A DNA stretch of 64,000 bases from Sulfurimonas autotrophica DSM 16294. Lineage in GTDB: Bacteria; Campylobacterota; Campylobacteria; Campylobacterales; Sulfurimonadaceae. Shown here piece after piece: positions 15,746 through 23,342 of this stretch. Location of the stretch: contig NC_014506.1 of NCBI RefSeq assembly GCF_000147355.1, positions 248,001 through 312,000 of the forward strand, in the 5' to 3' direction. The notes beneath the pieces are model-generated. The model was given only the letters and a program-made list of their open reading frames with translations. It was not told where the DNA came from and did no database searches. Both the position numbers and the translations under genes were made by a program. How positions within the stretch are numbered: position 1 is the stretch's first letter; each line of letters begins with the position of its first letter.

Positions 15746-16588
15746 ATGAAAAAAACACTTAATAATATAGTAATTTTACTAGCAGTATATAATGGCGAAA
15801 AATATCTCACTCAGCAGATAGAGAGCTTAACAAATCAAAGCGTGAAAGTTGATATTATTATCAGAGATGATGGTTCAACTGACAATTCCATAAAAATTAT
15901 AAAAGACTATGTAGACAATTATGATAATATTTATTTTTTAGAAGATGATTTACTTTCAACAAGAGCACAAAGTAATTTTAGTATTCTATTGGAATATGCA
16001 AAAAAATTAAACAAGTACAAATATTTTATGTTTTGTGATCAGGATGATGTATGGCTCGATAATAAAGTTGAATATACCTTAAATAAAATGCTTGAACTAG
16101 AGAAAAAATATTCAAACTTTCCTTTAATGGTGTTTTCAAATCTGATTGTGGCTAACAATAATTTGGAAATCATTTCTACTTCTATGTGGAAAAGTGAAAA
16201 ACTAGATATAGATATTATGAAAAATTTATATGATATATTGTCATTAAATGTCGTAACAGGATCAACAATCATGATAAATGAATACGCACTGCATAAGATG
16301 TCTCCAATGCCTCTAAACTATATTTATCATGATCATTGGATAGCAGCCAATATTGTAAAATATGGAAAATATGCATATATTGAAGAACCTTTGACTATTT
16401 ATAGGCAGCATGAACATAATGTTTTAGGTTCATCAAATAAAGGAATTAAATATTTTATTCAAAAAATTATTGACTTGTTCATCCATTTTTCTAATTTTAA
16501 AAAGAAATATAGTTATTTTGATTTTGAAATTAGTTTAAGCAGAGTTATCTTTCACAAAGTAATATTGAATATCAAGAGGCTTAAATAG
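15746..16588 (+). CDS. Glycosyltransferase family 2
   Basis: The 280-aa protein has a GT-A fold start VILLAVYNGEKYLTQQIESL, the nucleotide-sugar site RDDGSTDNS, and FCDQDDVWLDNK carrying the metal-binding DxD. The order and the FCDQDDVW form are typical of GT2 rhamnosyltransferase-like enzymes of O-antigen loci. There is no membrane span, so it acts at the cytoplasmic face on the lipid-linked glycan. It overlaps the next gene by one base. Confidence 0.85.
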   Translation: MKKTLNNIVILLAVYNGEKYLTQQIESLTNQSVKVDIIIRDDGSTDNSIKIIKDYVDNYDNIYFLEDDLLSTRAQSNFSILLEYAKKLNKYKYFMFCDQDDVWLDNKVEYTLNKMLELEKKYSNFPLMVFSNLIVANNNLEIISTSMWKSEKLDIDIMKNLYDILSLNVVTGSTIMINEYALHKMSPMPLNYIYHDHWIAANIVKYGKYAYIEEPLTIYRQHEHNVLGSSNKGIKYFIQKIIDLFIHFSNFKKKYSYFDFEISLSRVIFHKVILNIKRLK

Positions 16589-17691
16589 TGAAAATAGCAA
16601 TTCTGGGAACAAGAGGCATACCAAATAATTACGGAGGATTTGAACAGTTTGCCGAGCATTTAGCGGTTGCTTTAGTAAAAAGAAAGCATGAAGTCACTGT
16701 TTACAATTCACACAATCATAGTTATAAAGAAGATTATTACAATGGTGTAAGAATAAAACATATATATGATCCGGAGGATAAAATTGGAACAATAGGTCAA
16801 TTAATATATGATTTTTTATCAATTATAGATACAAGAAAAGAAAAATATGATGTTATCTTACAGTTGGGATATACCAGTAGTTCGGTATTTTTTAAGCTGC
16901 ATCCAAAAGATTCTATTATTGTGACAAATATGGACGGTTTAGAATGGAAGCGTACAAAATATTCCAAGAAAGTTCAAATGTTTTTAAAGTGGGCGGAATC
17001 TCTTGCAGTGAAAAGAAGTGATTATCTTGTAAGCGACTCCGTTGGTATTCAAAATTATCTAAAGAAAAAATATAATATTGAATCTACTTATATACCGTAT
17101 GGATCGGATGTATTTAAGAATCCTGATGACAAAGTAATAAAAAAGTTCAATTTAACACAGTTTAATTACAATATGTTGATTGCAAGAATAGAACCGGAGA
17201 ATAGTATAGAAATGATTTTGGAAGGAGTGTGTTTATCTCAAAAAAATATGAAGTTTTTAGTTATTGGAAATATTAATACTTCATATGGTGAATATATAAC
17301 AAATAAATTTAGTAAATATTTAAATATAATTTTTACCGGTGCGATTTATGATATAAATATTTTAAATAATTTAAGATATTACTCAAATCTTTACTTTCAT
17401 GGGCATACCGTAGGCGGTACCAATCCATCACTTTTAGAAGCTATGGGTTCAAGTGCATTAATATGTGCAAATAAAAATGAATTTAATGAATCTATTTTAG
17501 ATGAAGATGCTTTTTATTTTCAAAATAAAAAAGATGTTGCAATAATTATTAATAGTATAGTTAAAGAGAAATATCTTCACAAAGTAGAAAATAATTTAAT
17601 AAAAATAGAAAAACTTTACCAATGGGATAAAATTATTGATTCATATGAAAGATTATTTTTAGATATAAAATACTCTTCAAGAATAAAGTAG
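16588..17691 (+). CDS. Glycosyltransferase family 4 with DUF1972-type N-domain
   Basis: The 367-aa protein starts at GTG 16588 (TAGTG overlap). Its N-terminus KIAILGTRGIPNNYGGFEQFAEHLA is characteristic of the DUF1972 group of GT-B enzymes, which includes rhamnosyltransferases acting early in capsule repeat synthesis. The C-terminal half has HGHTVGGTNPSLLEAMG, the donor-binding segment of GT4 enzymes with its conserved glutamate. It probably adds the second sugar after the WbaP-like step, but the donor is unknown. Confidence 0.85.
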   Translation: MKIAILGTRGIPNNYGGFEQFAEHLAVALVKRKHEVTVYNSHNHSYKEDYYNGVRIKHIYDPEDKIGTIGQLIYDFLSIIDTRKEKYDVILQLGYTSSSVFFKLHPKDSIIVTNMDGLEWKRTKYSKKVQMFLKWAESLAVKRSDYLVSDSVGIQNYLKKKYNIESTYIPYGSDVFKNPDDKVIKKFNLTQFNYNMLIARIEPENSIEMILEGVCLSQKNMKFLVIGNINTSYGEYITNKFSKYLNIIFTGAIYDINILNNLRYYSNLYFHGHTVGGTNPSLLEAMGSSALICANKNEFNESILDEDAFYFQNKKDVAIIINSIVKEKYLHKVENNLIKIEKLYQWDKIIDSYERLFLDIKYSSRIK

Positions 17692-17705
17692 ATATAATTT
17701 TATTT

Positions 17706-19022
17706 ATGAAAAAACATTTATTAAATATATTTATTCTTCTTCTTGATATTTTATTATTGATCGGTATATTTTATTTAGCTATTTTTTTAAGGACTAGTAT
17801 TAAGACTTCAGGAATAGCTGAATTTAGTCCATACACTTTGAATGAATTCGCATTTGTTGTATTTATTATAGTTGCACTGATGTATTATGAAAAGATATAT
17901 ACTCTGCAATATGATTTTTGGCAAGAGACGAAAAAAATTCTAAAATCTTTGATTTTGGCATATTTTATCGTGTTAGCACTACTGACACTTACAAAAACAT
18001 CATTTGGCTATTCACGGCTTTTTATTAGTATCTATTTTTTGTTTGCAGTTTTTCTCATGCCGATAGCTAAAAGATTTGAAAAAAGAATCATATACAAATT
18101 TCCATTTTTTAAGAAAAAAGTGTTGGTAATGGGAGATAACAATCAGGTAGAAGTCTTAAAAAAAGAGCTGCGTGATAATTGGTATATTGGTATGGAAAGT
18201 GATGATAAAGAGTATGATACGGTTATTATATCCTCGCAGGGAATGAGTGTAGAAGAAGTGAATCATAAAATCACAAAATATTTAGAGGCTAACACCGCGG
18301 TTTATATTGTACCTTATGTGACAAATATAAACTTTGCCAATTCAAATATTATGGAGTACTCAAATATAAGGTACAGTACGATACAGGTAGAAAATAAACT
18401 TCTTTTAAAAATAAATATATGGATAAAAAACCTGTTTGACCTGTTTGTTACTTTGATGATAATGCCGTTCTTTTTGCTTATTCACGCTGTAATTAGTTTA
18501 GCTATTATCTTAGATTCCAAAGGGGCTGTATTTTTTAAGCAAGATAGATTAGGCAAAGATGATAATAATTTTGTATGTTATAAATATAGAACTATGTATA
18601 AAAATGCGGACGATATCCTAAAAAATTATTTAAAAAGTAACCCCGATGAAGTTAAATACTATGAAGAGTATCATAAGTACAAAAATGATCCTCGTGTAAC
18701 AAAAATCGGCAGACTTTTAAGAACAACTTCAATGGATGAATTACCGCAGATTATCAATGTACTAAAAGGTGAGATGAGCCTAGTCGGTCCTCGTCCTTAT
18801 ATGCTAAATGAATCTGATAAACTTGGAGAAGATAAAAACTTTATACTTAAAGTCAAACCCGGCATCACAGGATTATGGCAAGTAAGCGGTAGAAATAATT
18901 TGACTTTTAAACAAAGAAATGAGCTGGAAGTATGGTATATTAAAAACTGGTCTTTATGGGCTGACTTCGTTATTCTTATTAAAACGGTTAAAGTAGTGTT
19001 TTCAAAAATTGGAGCAAAATGA
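17706..19022 (+). CDS. Polyprenyl-phosphate sugar phosphotransferase (WbaP/WcaJ family)
   Basis: The 438-aa protein has four or five N-terminal membrane helices (about residues 1-120), a soluble middle region, one more hydrophobic helix near 245-265, and the catalytic bacterial sugar transferase domain with QDRLGKDDNNF, TSMDELPQIINVLKGEMSLV, GPRPYM and VKPGITGLWQVSGRN. It puts the first sugar phosphate on undecaprenyl phosphate and so starts repeat synthesis. No ribosome site is visible before ATG 17706, and a TATAAT lies only 8 bases upstream. It overlaps the next gene by 4 bases. Confidence 0.9.
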   Translation: MKKHLLNIFILLLDILLLIGIFYLAIFLRTSIKTSGIAEFSPYTLNEFAFVVFIIVALMYYEKIYTLQYDFWQETKKILKSLILAYFIVLALLTLTKTSFGYSRLFISIYFLFAVFLMPIAKRFEKRIIYKFPFFKKKVLVMGDNNQVEVLKKELRDNWYIGMESDDKEYDTVIISSQGMSVEEVNHKITKYLEANTAVYIVPYVTNINFANSNIMEYSNIRYSTIQVENKLLLKINIWIKNLFDLFVTLMIMPFFLLIHAVISLAIILDSKGAVFFKQDRLGKDDNNFVCYKYRTMYKNADDILKNYLKSNPDEVKYYEEYHKYKNDPRVTKIGRLLRTTSMDELPQIINVLKGEMSLVGPRPYMLNESDKLGEDKNFILKVKPGITGLWQVSGRNNLTFKQRNELEVWYIKNWSLWADFVILIKTVKVVFSKIGAK

Positions 19023-20242
19023 AAAATTTGTTTAAAAAGGATATAAATACTTACATTAATTATCTTATAATTGCATATGCTTTTAGTTTTCCTATCTCAA
19101 AAGCAGCTGTTAATATTATAGAAGTGTTAATGATATTACTATGGATATATCAAGATAATTGGAATCATAAAATTAAACTTTTAAAATCAAGTAAATTTAT
19201 AATATTTATCTCGCTTTTCATTCTTTATAATGTTATCTCGATTCTATGGGCTTCAGATACAATATTCGCACTTAATTACATTGGAAAATATCATCATTTT
19301 TTAATGATTCCCATCATATATACCGCATTAGAGAAAAAATACATTAATTATGTTCTTTCAGCATTTGTAGCAAGTGTATTTATTAGTGAGATAATGTCTT
19401 ATGGTATATATTTTAAATTATTTACATATAAGCATGCCACCCCGGAATTTCCTACACCGTTTATGCATCACATCACCTATAGTGTGATTTTGGCATTTAC
19501 AAGCACTATATTATTAATAAATTTTTTTATGGCAAAAGAATTAAGGTACAAGATATTTAATATTTTATTTTTTATTACATTGACTATAAATTTATTTATA
19601 AATGGCGGCAGAACAGGACAGCTTCTCTTCGTTATTTTACTTTTTACGCTCTTTTTCATGTTTATGAAAAGCAAAATAAAGGCTATTATATTATCTACGG
19701 TTATAATCATTACAATTCTATTACTTGCATATAATTTTAGCAGCAATTTTAATTCTAGAATTCATCAATTACAAAGTGGTTTGCATAAGGCTATCGATAA
19801 AAAAGATTATACTGATCAGGGTGGTATGAGAATTGTTATGATAAAAATAGGAACAGAAACCTTTTTAGATAATTTTATAAAAGGAACCGGTATTGGGAAT
19901 GTTATGAAAGATGCCAATATTTATAGTGCTAAAAATCATTATAAAACAAGAGATATGCATATATTTGGAGATTTTCATAATGTTTTTATCAATACGGCAG
20001 CACAGCTTGGTATATTAGGTTTAATAATTTTATTGGCAATATTTTATTCATTATTGAGTTTAAAATTTAAAACAAAGCAGTATTATATTTTAAATTTAAT
20101 GTTTGTTATATCATTTATACTTTTTTCCTGCACGCATAATACATTCCATACTATGAATCCGATGGTTTTCTTTGTTGTGTTTACAGGATTATTCAATGCA
20201 ATATCTAGAATTGAAACACAAGAAGTTAGAATTGTTAAATAA
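19019..20242 (+). CDS. O-antigen ligase / polymerase family protein
   Basis: This 407-aa polytopic protein has about ten hydrophobic helices and the Wzy_C pattern: a loop beginning NGGRTGQLLFVILLFTLFF and, after a periplasmic loop, GDFHNVFINTAAQLGILGLI with the conserved His. Such proteins transfer polymerised glycan to lipid A core or polymerise repeats. With an ABC exporter in the same locus, ligase is more likely than polymerase. It is the last gene of the polysaccharide locus, about 185 bases from rpmJ. Confidence 0.8.
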   Translation: MKNLFKKDINTYINYLIIAYAFSFPISKAAVNIIEVLMILLWIYQDNWNHKIKLLKSSKFIIFISLFILYNVISILWASDTIFALNYIGKYHHFLMIPIIYTALEKKYINYVLSAFVASVFISEIMSYGIYFKLFTYKHATPEFPTPFMHHITYSVILAFTSTILLINFFMAKELRYKIFNILFFITLTINLFINGGRTGQLLFVILLFTLFFMFMKSKIKAIILSTVIIITILLLAYNFSSNFNSRIHQLQSGLHKAIDKKDYTDQGGMRIVMIKIGTETFLDNFIKGTGIGNVMKDANIYSAKNHYKTRDMHIFGDFHNVFINTAAQLGILGLIILLAIFYSLLSLKFKTKQYYILNLMFVISFILFSCTHNTFHTMNPMVFFVVFTGLFNAISRIETQEVRIVK

Positions 20243-20276
20243 ATGAGATTTAATAATACTTTTACATTAATTTGTG

Positions 20277-20282
20277 TATAAT
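20277..20282 (+). promoter_or_regulatory. -10 box of the alpha ribosomal operon
   Basis: TGTGTATAATTCC carries TATAAT at 20277-20282. Transcription would begin near 20289-20290, just before the first base of the long leader stem at 20292. The match between predicted start and the leader fold supports both. Confidence 0.65.
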
Positions 20283-20288
20283 TCCCAT

Positions 20289-20426
20289 CCGCTTTACTGT
20301 TTTAACAAAAGAGAAGAGTATTTCTATCTTTAATATATAATGTATAGAAGATAAAAGTATTGGCAAGCGAATAAATAGAATTCTTTGCCTGAAAACAGTA
20401 AAGACAACGACTAATAAGGACTTACG
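20289..20426 (+). ncRNA. Structured 5' leader of the rpmJ-rpsM-rpsK-rpsD-rpoA-rplQ operon
   Basis: A 12-base perfect inverted repeat, CTTTACTGTTTT (20292-20303) and AAAACAGTAAAG (20392-20403), closes a domain with two further hairpins: 20317-20330 with 20348-20361 (one mismatch, two G-U pairs) and 20362-20372 with 20380-20389 (one bulged C). The ribosome site AAGGA and ATG of rpmJ follow at once. In other bacteria S4, encoded here as rpsD, represses its operon by binding such a leader. The role here is inferred from position and fold. Confidence 0.7.
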
Positions 20427-20540
20427 ATGAAAGTAAGAGCTTCAGTGAAAAAGATGTGTGATGACTGCAAAGTTATCAAAAGAAGAGGTATTGTAAGAGT
20501 AATCTGCAAGAACCCTAAACATAAACAGAGACAAGGATAA
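20427..20540 (+). CDS. rpmJ: 50S ribosomal protein L36
   Basis: A 37-residue protein, [15 protein letters not shown] at the start, with C11, C14, C27 and H32 in the pattern of zinc-binding (C+) L36. It ends KHKQRQG. ATG 20427 has AAGGA upstream and the stop is two bases before rpsM. L36 binds 23S rRNA near the peptidyl transferase region. The gene is too short for many ORF callers but the match is clear. Confidence 0.97.
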
Positions 20541-20542
20541 CC

Positions 20543-20905
20543 ATGGCTCGTATTTCTGGTGTAGATTTACCTAAGAAAAAACGTATAGAGTATGGATTAA
20601 CATACATCTATGGTATTGGTCTTCATACTGCTCGTCAAATATTAGACGCAACAGGGATAGACTATAACAAAAGAGTTTTCGAATTAAACGAAGAAGATGT
20701 AGCAGCGATTACGAAAGAAATCCGTGAAAACCATATGGTTGAGGGTGATTTACGTAAAAAAGTTGCAATGGATATTAAGGCACTTATGGATTTAGGTTCA
20801 TACCGTGGTCTACGTCACCGTCGTGGTCTTCCATGTCGTGGTCAAAAAACTAAGACAAATGCGCGTACTCGTAAGGGTAAACGTAAAACTGTCGGCGCAG
20901 CGTAA
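20543..20905 (+). CDS. rpsM: 30S ribosomal protein S13
   Basis: The 120-aa product begins [20 protein letters not shown] and ends with the basic tail [20 protein letters not shown], both typical of S13. S13 sits in the head of the 30S subunit and contacts the P-site tRNA and the 50S subunit. It starts two bases after rpmJ and is followed at 12 bases by rpsK, the standard alpha-operon order. Confidence 0.98.
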
Positions 20906-21974: not shown

Positions 21975-22976
21975 ATGAAAAAGATTAAAACTACTCCACT
22001 TGCTCCACAAGAGTTTGAGGTAGAACAAATAAGTGATAATGAAGCAAATATCATGGCATACCCTTTTGAAGTAGGGTATGCTATATCGTTGGCTCATCCA
22101 CTTCGCCGTTTTCTATTAAGCAGCTCGGTTGGTTATGCGCCAATTGCTATTAAAATCGAGGGTGCTAAACATGAGTTTGACTCAGTTCGTGGTATGCTTG
22201 AAGATATTTCAGATTTTATCTTAAATCTTAAAGAGATTCGCTTTAAATTAAACAATGATGCAACACAGGCAGAGATTAATTACAGCTTTGCGGGACCGTG
22301 TACTATTAAAGGTGCAGATCTTAGCAATGATGAAGTAGAGGTGGTAACACCTGATGCTCCGCTTGCAACTTTAAATGAAGATTCAACACTTAACTTCACA
22401 CTTAAGATTGCTCAAGGGATTGGCTATGTAGCGAGTGAAGATACGGCTGTAGAAGTTGCTGATGATGATTATATTGCGTTAGATGCTTATTTTACTCCGG
22501 TAAGAAGCGCAACGTATAAAATTGACAATGTATTGGTAGAAGATAACCCTAACTTTGAAAGAGTTATTATGAATATCAAAACTGATGGACAGATTTCTCC
22601 TATTGATGCATTTAGAAACTCTTTAGAAGTAATGTATGCACAGTTAGCTGTATTTAATTCAGAAATCAGTATTAAAGCTCCTGCTACAATTGAGAGAGTT
22701 GAAGAATCACCTGATTTGAAAAAACTAACAACTAATATTGATAGTTTAGGATTAAGTGCACGTAGTTTTAACTGTCTTGATCGCTCAAGCATTAAACTCA
22801 TCGGTGAAATTGTACTTATGAGTACAAATGATTTGAAAAATGTTAAAAATCTTGGAAAAAAATCTTATGATGAAATCGTAGAAAAAATTCAAGAATTTGG
22901 TTTTGAAGTTGGTGCTGATTTAGCTGATGATGTAGTCACTGCACTGAAAAAGAAAATAGAAGCCGTACAGGCGTAA
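21975..22976 (+). CDS. rpoA: RNA polymerase subunit alpha
   Basis: The 333-aa product has the alpha N-terminal dimerisation domain ([40 protein letters not shown]) and the C-terminal domain ([37 protein letters not shown]), which binds UP elements and activators. The CTD is followed by an extended tail. It lies in its usual place between rpsD and rplQ, with a 27-base gap containing AAAGG. Confidence 0.98.
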
Positions 22977-22991
22977 TAAGAGGAATTAGAT

Positions 22992-23342
22992 ATGAGACAC
23001 CGTCATGGATATCGTAAACTAGGTCGTACAAGTGCACACCGTGCTGCTCTTTTAAAGAACCTTAGTATTTCGTTAATAGAACATGGTAAAATTGAAACAA
23101 CTGCTGTAAAAGCAAAAGAGCTTCGCTCTTATATTGAGAAACTTATCACAACTGCTGGTAAAAATGACTCAAATGCGCACAGAGCAGTATTTGCTGCGCT
23201 TCAAAGTAAAGAAGCAACTAAAACTTTAGTAAATGAGTTAGCACCTAAGTACGTTGATCGTGCTGGTGGATATACTAGAATTACTAGAACTCGTATTCGT
23301 CGTGGTGATGCTACACCGATGGCATTTATCGAATTAGTATAA
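22992..23342 (+). CDS. rplQ: 50S ribosomal protein L17
   Basis: The 116-aa protein begins [20 protein letters not shown], the L17 hallmark, and contains [20 protein letters not shown] and [20 protein letters not shown]. It binds 23S rRNA near the exit-tunnel side of the 50S subunit. It is the last gene of the alpha operon and is followed by a group of terminator-like hairpins. Confidence 0.98.

Follow-up and report, generated by a model that had tools for sequence, protein, structure and literature searches.

What does the 184-nt gap between an O-antigen ligase-type gene and rpmJ, at the head of the alpha ribosomal operon of Sulfurimonas autotrophica, contain, and could it act as a regulatory RNA? 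The window analysed here is a stretch of 64,000 nt (positions 248001-312000 of the complete, 2.15 Mb genome), in which Pfam assignments give the operon the gene order L36, S13, S11, S4, RpoA and L17. Genes of glycosyltransferase, polyprenyl-phosphate sugar transferase-like and O-antigen ligase type (15746-20242) lie directly 5' of the operon, whereas several relatives carry infA 5' of rpmJ. An earlier note, made from the sequence of this window, had described in the gap a perfect 12-bp stem enclosing two hairpins, with a TATAAT upstream and the rpmJ ribosome site after it, and all of these elements were found where it had placed them. In window coordinates, the features of the locus are as follows.

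19019-20242: flanking gene of O-antigen ligase type, 5' of the 184-nt gap before rpmJ
20277..20290, + strand: -10 box and discriminator TATAATTCCCATCC; predicted transcription start at about 20287-20291
20292..20303, + strand: 5' strand of helix P1, CTTTACTGTTTT, forming a perfect 12 bp with the 3' strand, with covariation
20304..20316, + strand: J1/2, a purine-rich single strand of 13 nt with a terminal GAAG(AG) core (alignment A2)
20317..20361, + strand: hairpin P2, lower stem AGUAUUU/AAGUAUU with a conserved U-G, then UUGG
20362..20389, + strand: hairpin P3, GG...CC, with a variable loop and an inserted element in some relatives
20392..20403, + strand: 3' strand of P1, AAAACAGTAAAG, its end 23 nt 5' of the rpmJ start
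20416..20420, + strand: SD-like AAGGA of rpmJ, recognized by sequence and unpaired in the predicted fold
20421..20437, + strand: predicted start-codon hairpin CUUAC(GAUGAAA)GUAAG, a candidate expression platform
20427..20540, + strand: rpmJ (L36), Pfam PF00444, ATG at 20427
20543..20905, + strand: rpsM (S13), Pfam PF00416
20917..21309, + strand: rpsK (S11), Pfam PF00411
21321..21947, + strand: rpsD (S4), Pfam PF00163 and PF01479, the candidate likeliest ligand
21975..22976, + strand: rpoA, by Pfam
22992..23342, + strand: rplQ (L17), Pfam PF01196

Between the TATAAT (20277-20282) and the rpmJ ribosome site, positions 20292-20403 form a three-way junction, in which the outer helix P1 surrounds P2 and P3; P3 directly adjoins P2 without a linker, and J3/1 consists of 2 nt. 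The 115 nt at 20289-20403 reach a minimum free energy of -30.5 kcal/mol; dinucleotide shuffles gave -14.5 +/- 2.8 (z = -5.76), and none of 200 was equally stable. The reverse strand of the leader also folds (z -4.8). Leaders of relatives were gathered via S13 homology, and the earlier note had staked its proposal on covariation in the regions upstream of rpmJ/rpsM; such compensatory changes are present. In the alignment of 27 Sulfurimonadaceae leaders (A2), 90.7% of the helix cells are paired over P1, P2 and P3 together (95% in P2), double compensatory changes occur at 15 of the 32 pairs, and RNAalifold yields the identical three-helix fold. Its covariation score was reached by 0 of 500 shuffles, P1 taken alone also covaries, and pairing drops to 42-53% once the partner columns are shifted by 1-3. 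The model built on A2, R2, matches 111 of 121 Sulfurimonadaceae genomes, with a single copy in each and two copies in one genome.

The same architecture, with a short P1, is observed in the Sulfurovum-type leaders (alignment A1, model R1), and a broader model, R3, was derived from 42 leaders without Sulfurimonadaceae (A3). The covariation score of A3 was 0.53 against 0.21 when shuffled; no alignment's score was matched in 500 shuffles, and the slid controls were much lower. Exactly one R1 site is present in each of 117 of 299 Campylobacterales genomes, and R3 matches 154 of the 299, again at one site per genome, Campylobacter-type genomes among them. In all 63 genomes with both leader and rpsM positions listed, the R1 match shares the strand of rpsM and precedes this gene by 122-571 nt. 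In the alignments of relatives, G-U cells are much more frequent than A-C cells (127 versus 26 in A2, about fivefold; 82 versus 9 in A3, about ninefold), showing that the conserved molecule is the + strand RNA.

The relationship between the two groups of leaders is supported by cross-detection at the homologous place: R3 matches L018 and L027 at E ~1e-4, and R2 in turn matches L078 (6e-4); it also has weak matches to L072 and L053. The Sulfurimonas leaders themselves are not matched directly by R3, and their homology therefore rests on these bridge matches, on synteny and on a shared core. This core reads GAAGA, P2 with a lower stem ending UUU/AAG, UUGG, P3 and CC, in the Arcobacteraceae version GAAGUUUUUAUAAAAU...AUUUUAUAAAGAGUUGG; its GAAGA, within J1/2, is common to Sulfurimonadaceae and the other families in the alignment comparison. 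In most non-Sulfurimonadaceae leaders of A3, a YUCA/YUCG motif also lies just 5' of the P3 3' strand. Some families have no recognizable leader: none is visible between infA and rpmJ in L147 (f2) and L149 (f15), and none was found in L145, from a Helicobacter-type family (f14). Comparison among genomes shows the structure, conservation, position, uniqueness per genome and promoter of this leader, and by such comparison it is well established as a real, phylogenetically conserved RNA.

How the leader ends seems to differ between families. Outside Sulfurimonadaceae, most leaders have a pseudoknot between the P2 loop and the tail that follows P1 on its 3' side, with loop versions GCACC, ACACU, CCACU and GGCACU facing the tails GGUGC, AGUGU, AGUGG and AGUGCC. 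All 13 A1 sequences retain its five pairs, two of which show changes. The loop-tail match in 37 leaders was 13.7, compared with 10.4 +/- 0.3 for shuffled tails and 12.3 +/- 0.3 for tails swapped between species, and neither control (200 or 300 trials) ever equalled it. The Arcobacteraceae pseudoknot is clear by eye in six sequences and not significant by permutation (40/300); in several members of this family its strands are reversed in sequence (UUUGUGUU/AACACAAA). In leaders without an insert after it, about 20-24 nt separate the end of the pseudoknot 3' strand from the AUG. In Sulfurimonadaceae the pseudoknot is absent and P1 ends 21-28 nt before the AUG, a similar distance, so that the same boundary is built in two ways. 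Around the rpmJ start codon itself, clade-specific hairpins are observed (CUUUC/GAAAG in Sulfurimonas, UAACC/GGUUA in Sulfurovum); across families they show a small excess over permutations, confounded by phylogeny, and the predicted start-codon hairpin as an expression platform is a candidate and a lead only.

In some genomes, elements of 100-300 nt lie between the leader and rpmJ. In several Sulfurimonas genomes a hairpin element, CACC-N-GGTG-AGCTTTAGTGACTGA..., is inserted either before rpmJ (L006, L007, L011-L013, L094 and L097) or in the P3 loop (L020, L090 and L100), and similar elements precede rpmJ in other families (L045, L063, L066, L068 and L072). The insert motif reaches up to 7 copies in some genomes, against 0-1 for a reversed-pattern control, and given this recurrence it looks like a dispersed small repeat.

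The predicted promoter would place this RNA at the very start of the transcript. The 14-mer TATAATTCCCATCC, allowing at most one mismatch, occurs at exactly five sites in the 2.15 Mb genome: one is at the leader, and each of the other four (chromosome positions 696122, 1571319, 1741218 and 2122319) precedes one of the four 16S genes by about 330 nt. Two other Sulfurimonas have an identical 14-mer at the leader and at rrn, and similar discriminators are retained in further ones. The confinement of this 14-mer to the alpha operon and the four rRNA operons suggests a common transcriptional control. Order-wide, an exact TATAAT precedes the core in 90 of 132 leaders, mostly by 17-60 nt, against 19% in shuffles. 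The TATAAT at 20277 escaped a consensus promoter scan because no -35 hexamer fits. From the conservation of the TATAAT and the rrn-type core, the most likely transcription start is no more than about 5 nt from P1; the predicted start therefore falls 5' of the structure, and not inside or after it, where it would have counted against the reading of the earlier note.

Is this leader a known one? The Rfam search that the earlier note had proposed (Rfam 15) found no family at the leader, in the window or in relatives, and no riboswitch or known leader near its gathering score. The Alpha_RBS model (RF00140), whose ligand in E. coli is S4, did not match the leader even at an E cutoff of 10, which agrees with the earlier note that this is not the E. 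coli alpha pseudoknot. Weak Alpha_RBS matches in L040 (2927-3020) and L062 (2927-3033), at 13-19 bits against 38, cover the rpsM start and probably reflect S13 coding similarity; as the model includes S13 coding sequence there, membership in that family was dismissed. The two systems share the downstream products S13-S11-S4-RpoA-L17 and, in most Campylobacterota families, a pseudoknot near the ribosome site. However, the E. coli structure extends over the start of rpsM, while the Campylobacterota leader is a three-way junction upstream of rpmJ and so does not overlap the rpsM ribosome site. As a candidate alpha-type S4 leader with possible rRNA mimicry, it resembles the Firmicutes rpsD leader and the Fusobacteriales S4 r-leader, in which a conserved GUAA mimics 16S (PMC7247131). 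The Campylobacterota leader instead displays GAAGA/UUGG, plus an h18-like CACY/RGUG in most families; the sole GUAA of the window leader is in the P1 3' strand, at a place where many relatives have GCAA, and no GUAA is conserved in A3. Like the S4 r-leaders of Clostridia, Bacteroidia and Flavobacteria, it is a prediction of comparative genomics, although for Bacteroidia and Flavobacteria the motifs described are hairpins (PMC7247131). It lies in the 5' UTR of an r-protein operon, its structure covaries and its association with r-protein genes is consistent, as expected of an r-leader. The literature search, which did not extend to subscription papers and supplements, found no paper on a Campylobacterota r-protein leader. 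The best explanation is a new r-leader family of Campylobacterota outside Rfam. The suspicion in the earlier note of an undescribed autoregulatory element is thereby partly supported: a conserved RNA leader is borne out by the covariation, the adjacent upstream promoter, the restriction to the alpha operon and the lack of an Rfam match, and its autoregulatory role is probable.

Three further readings of the sequence were rejected. TTTTAACAAA in Sulfurimonas is boxA-like, and it is not kept in Sulfuricurvum or in other families, which speaks against boxA antitermination. Mimicry of 16S h16 through GAAGAA/GUUGU fails on the h16-type GAAGAAG, which is missing from h16 of this genome's 16S. Transcription attenuation was discarded, as no intrinsic terminator was found in 20150-20560, which makes translational control likelier.

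We consider it probable that this cis-acting alpha-operon leader mediates translational autoregulation by S4; the r-protein ligand, its identity as S4 and the translational mode are what we infer. S4 is established as the autoregulator of the alpha operon in Gammaproteobacteria; an S4 leader is confirmed for Firmicutes and predicted for four further groups, and these six groups, where it is a confirmed or predicted leader ligand, do not include Campylobacterota (PMC7247131, Table 1). Under S4 autoregulation, the rRNA-type promoter would start transcription just upstream of P1, so that the mRNA would begin with the three-way junction. A free operon product, most likely S4, in excess over rRNA would bind the junction at its GAAGA/UUGG core and stabilize the fold at its 3' edge, which lies about 20-28 nt ahead of the rpmJ start and is formed by the P2-loop pseudoknot in most families and by the long P1 in Sulfurimonas. 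The 30S subunit would then be blocked or trapped at the start of rpmJ, and coupled translation would damp the production of L36-S13-S11-S4-RpoA-L17. By inference, a boundary conserved at about -20 to -28 points to such control of rpmJ translation initiation with coupling downstream, although the 100-300 nt elements between leader and rpmJ in some genomes fit badly with a purely steric block at the start codon.

A possible mode of recognition comes from 16S helix 18 (h18), which only S4 and S12 contact (PMC7356742). The pseudoknot CACY/RGUG(N)AA equals the h18 base (GCACCG...GGUGCAA, pairs 501-504/541-544), and GCACCG occurs in this genome's 16S at h18 only. CACY/RGUG is present in most pseudoknot families, the full GCACCG/GGUGCAA in Sulfurovum-type leaders only; the h18-like helix is absent from Sulfurimonas leaders and reversed in several Arcobacteraceae. 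Being short, noticed afterwards, missing in Sulfurimonas itself and reversed elsewhere, this likeness is a lead and not a proof for S4 sensing through h18 mimicry; these weaknesses, and the lack of a conserved GUAA of the kind by which the S4 leaders of Firmicutes and Fusobacteria mimic rRNA, count against S4. The bolder idea of a Campylobacterota-wide S4 sensor imitating the h18 base by a pseudoknot of its P2 loop with the mRNA shortly before the ribosome site, in which Sulfurimonadaceae lost this pseudoknot, moved the boundary to a long P1 and kept the rRNA-identical promoter, is held tentatively.

The same kind of autoregulatory leader could instead respond to S13, S11, L36 or L17. The leader always precedes the whole operon, with rpmJ as its first gene, and genomic context alone therefore cannot separate the candidate products; however, among them S4 alone is an established alpha-operon autoregulator elsewhere (PMC7247131) and S4 alone touches h18 (PMC7356742), which renders another ligand rather unlikely. 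A constitutive 5' structure that senses no protein, guarding an abundant mRNA from decay or serving as a ribosome standby site, would suit a leader at the extreme 5' end of the predicted transcript whose P1 and P3 sequences vary freely. Nevertheless, the conserved unpaired and junction letters GAAGA and UUGG surpass the needs of simple stability, and the covarying pseudoknot at a fixed AUG distance, with one copy per genome before one operon, also argues against such a structure, making it more doubtful still. A riboswitch that adjusts ribosome synthesis to a small molecule or to a (p)ppGpp-type signal could have such an anatomy, with a compact multi-helix junction that carries conserved letters and a pseudoknot close to the ribosome site, but metabolite switches usually control several loci, and here the matches are confined to the alpha operon, one per genome, with no Rfam riboswitch match; this reading is very improbable. 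Lastly, a chance or DNA-level palindrome without an RNA role, for which the AT-rich region and the folding of the reverse strand might speak, is refuted by the comparative data (covariation, G-U above A-C, order-wide conservation and fixed position).

S4 autoregulation thus stays the preferred reading. The balancing of r-proteins with rRNA in Campylobacterota is apparently undescribed so far, and one conserved leader across Campylobacter, Sulfurimonas, Sulfurovum and relatives provides a directly testable candidate regulator for it, on an operon that also encodes the RNA polymerase alpha subunit. The swap of the pseudoknot for a long P1 offers a natural experiment in r-leader evolution. If the tentative model of an h18-imitating sensor is true, the rRNA-identical promoter would tie S4 supply to rRNA supply in both transcription and translation.
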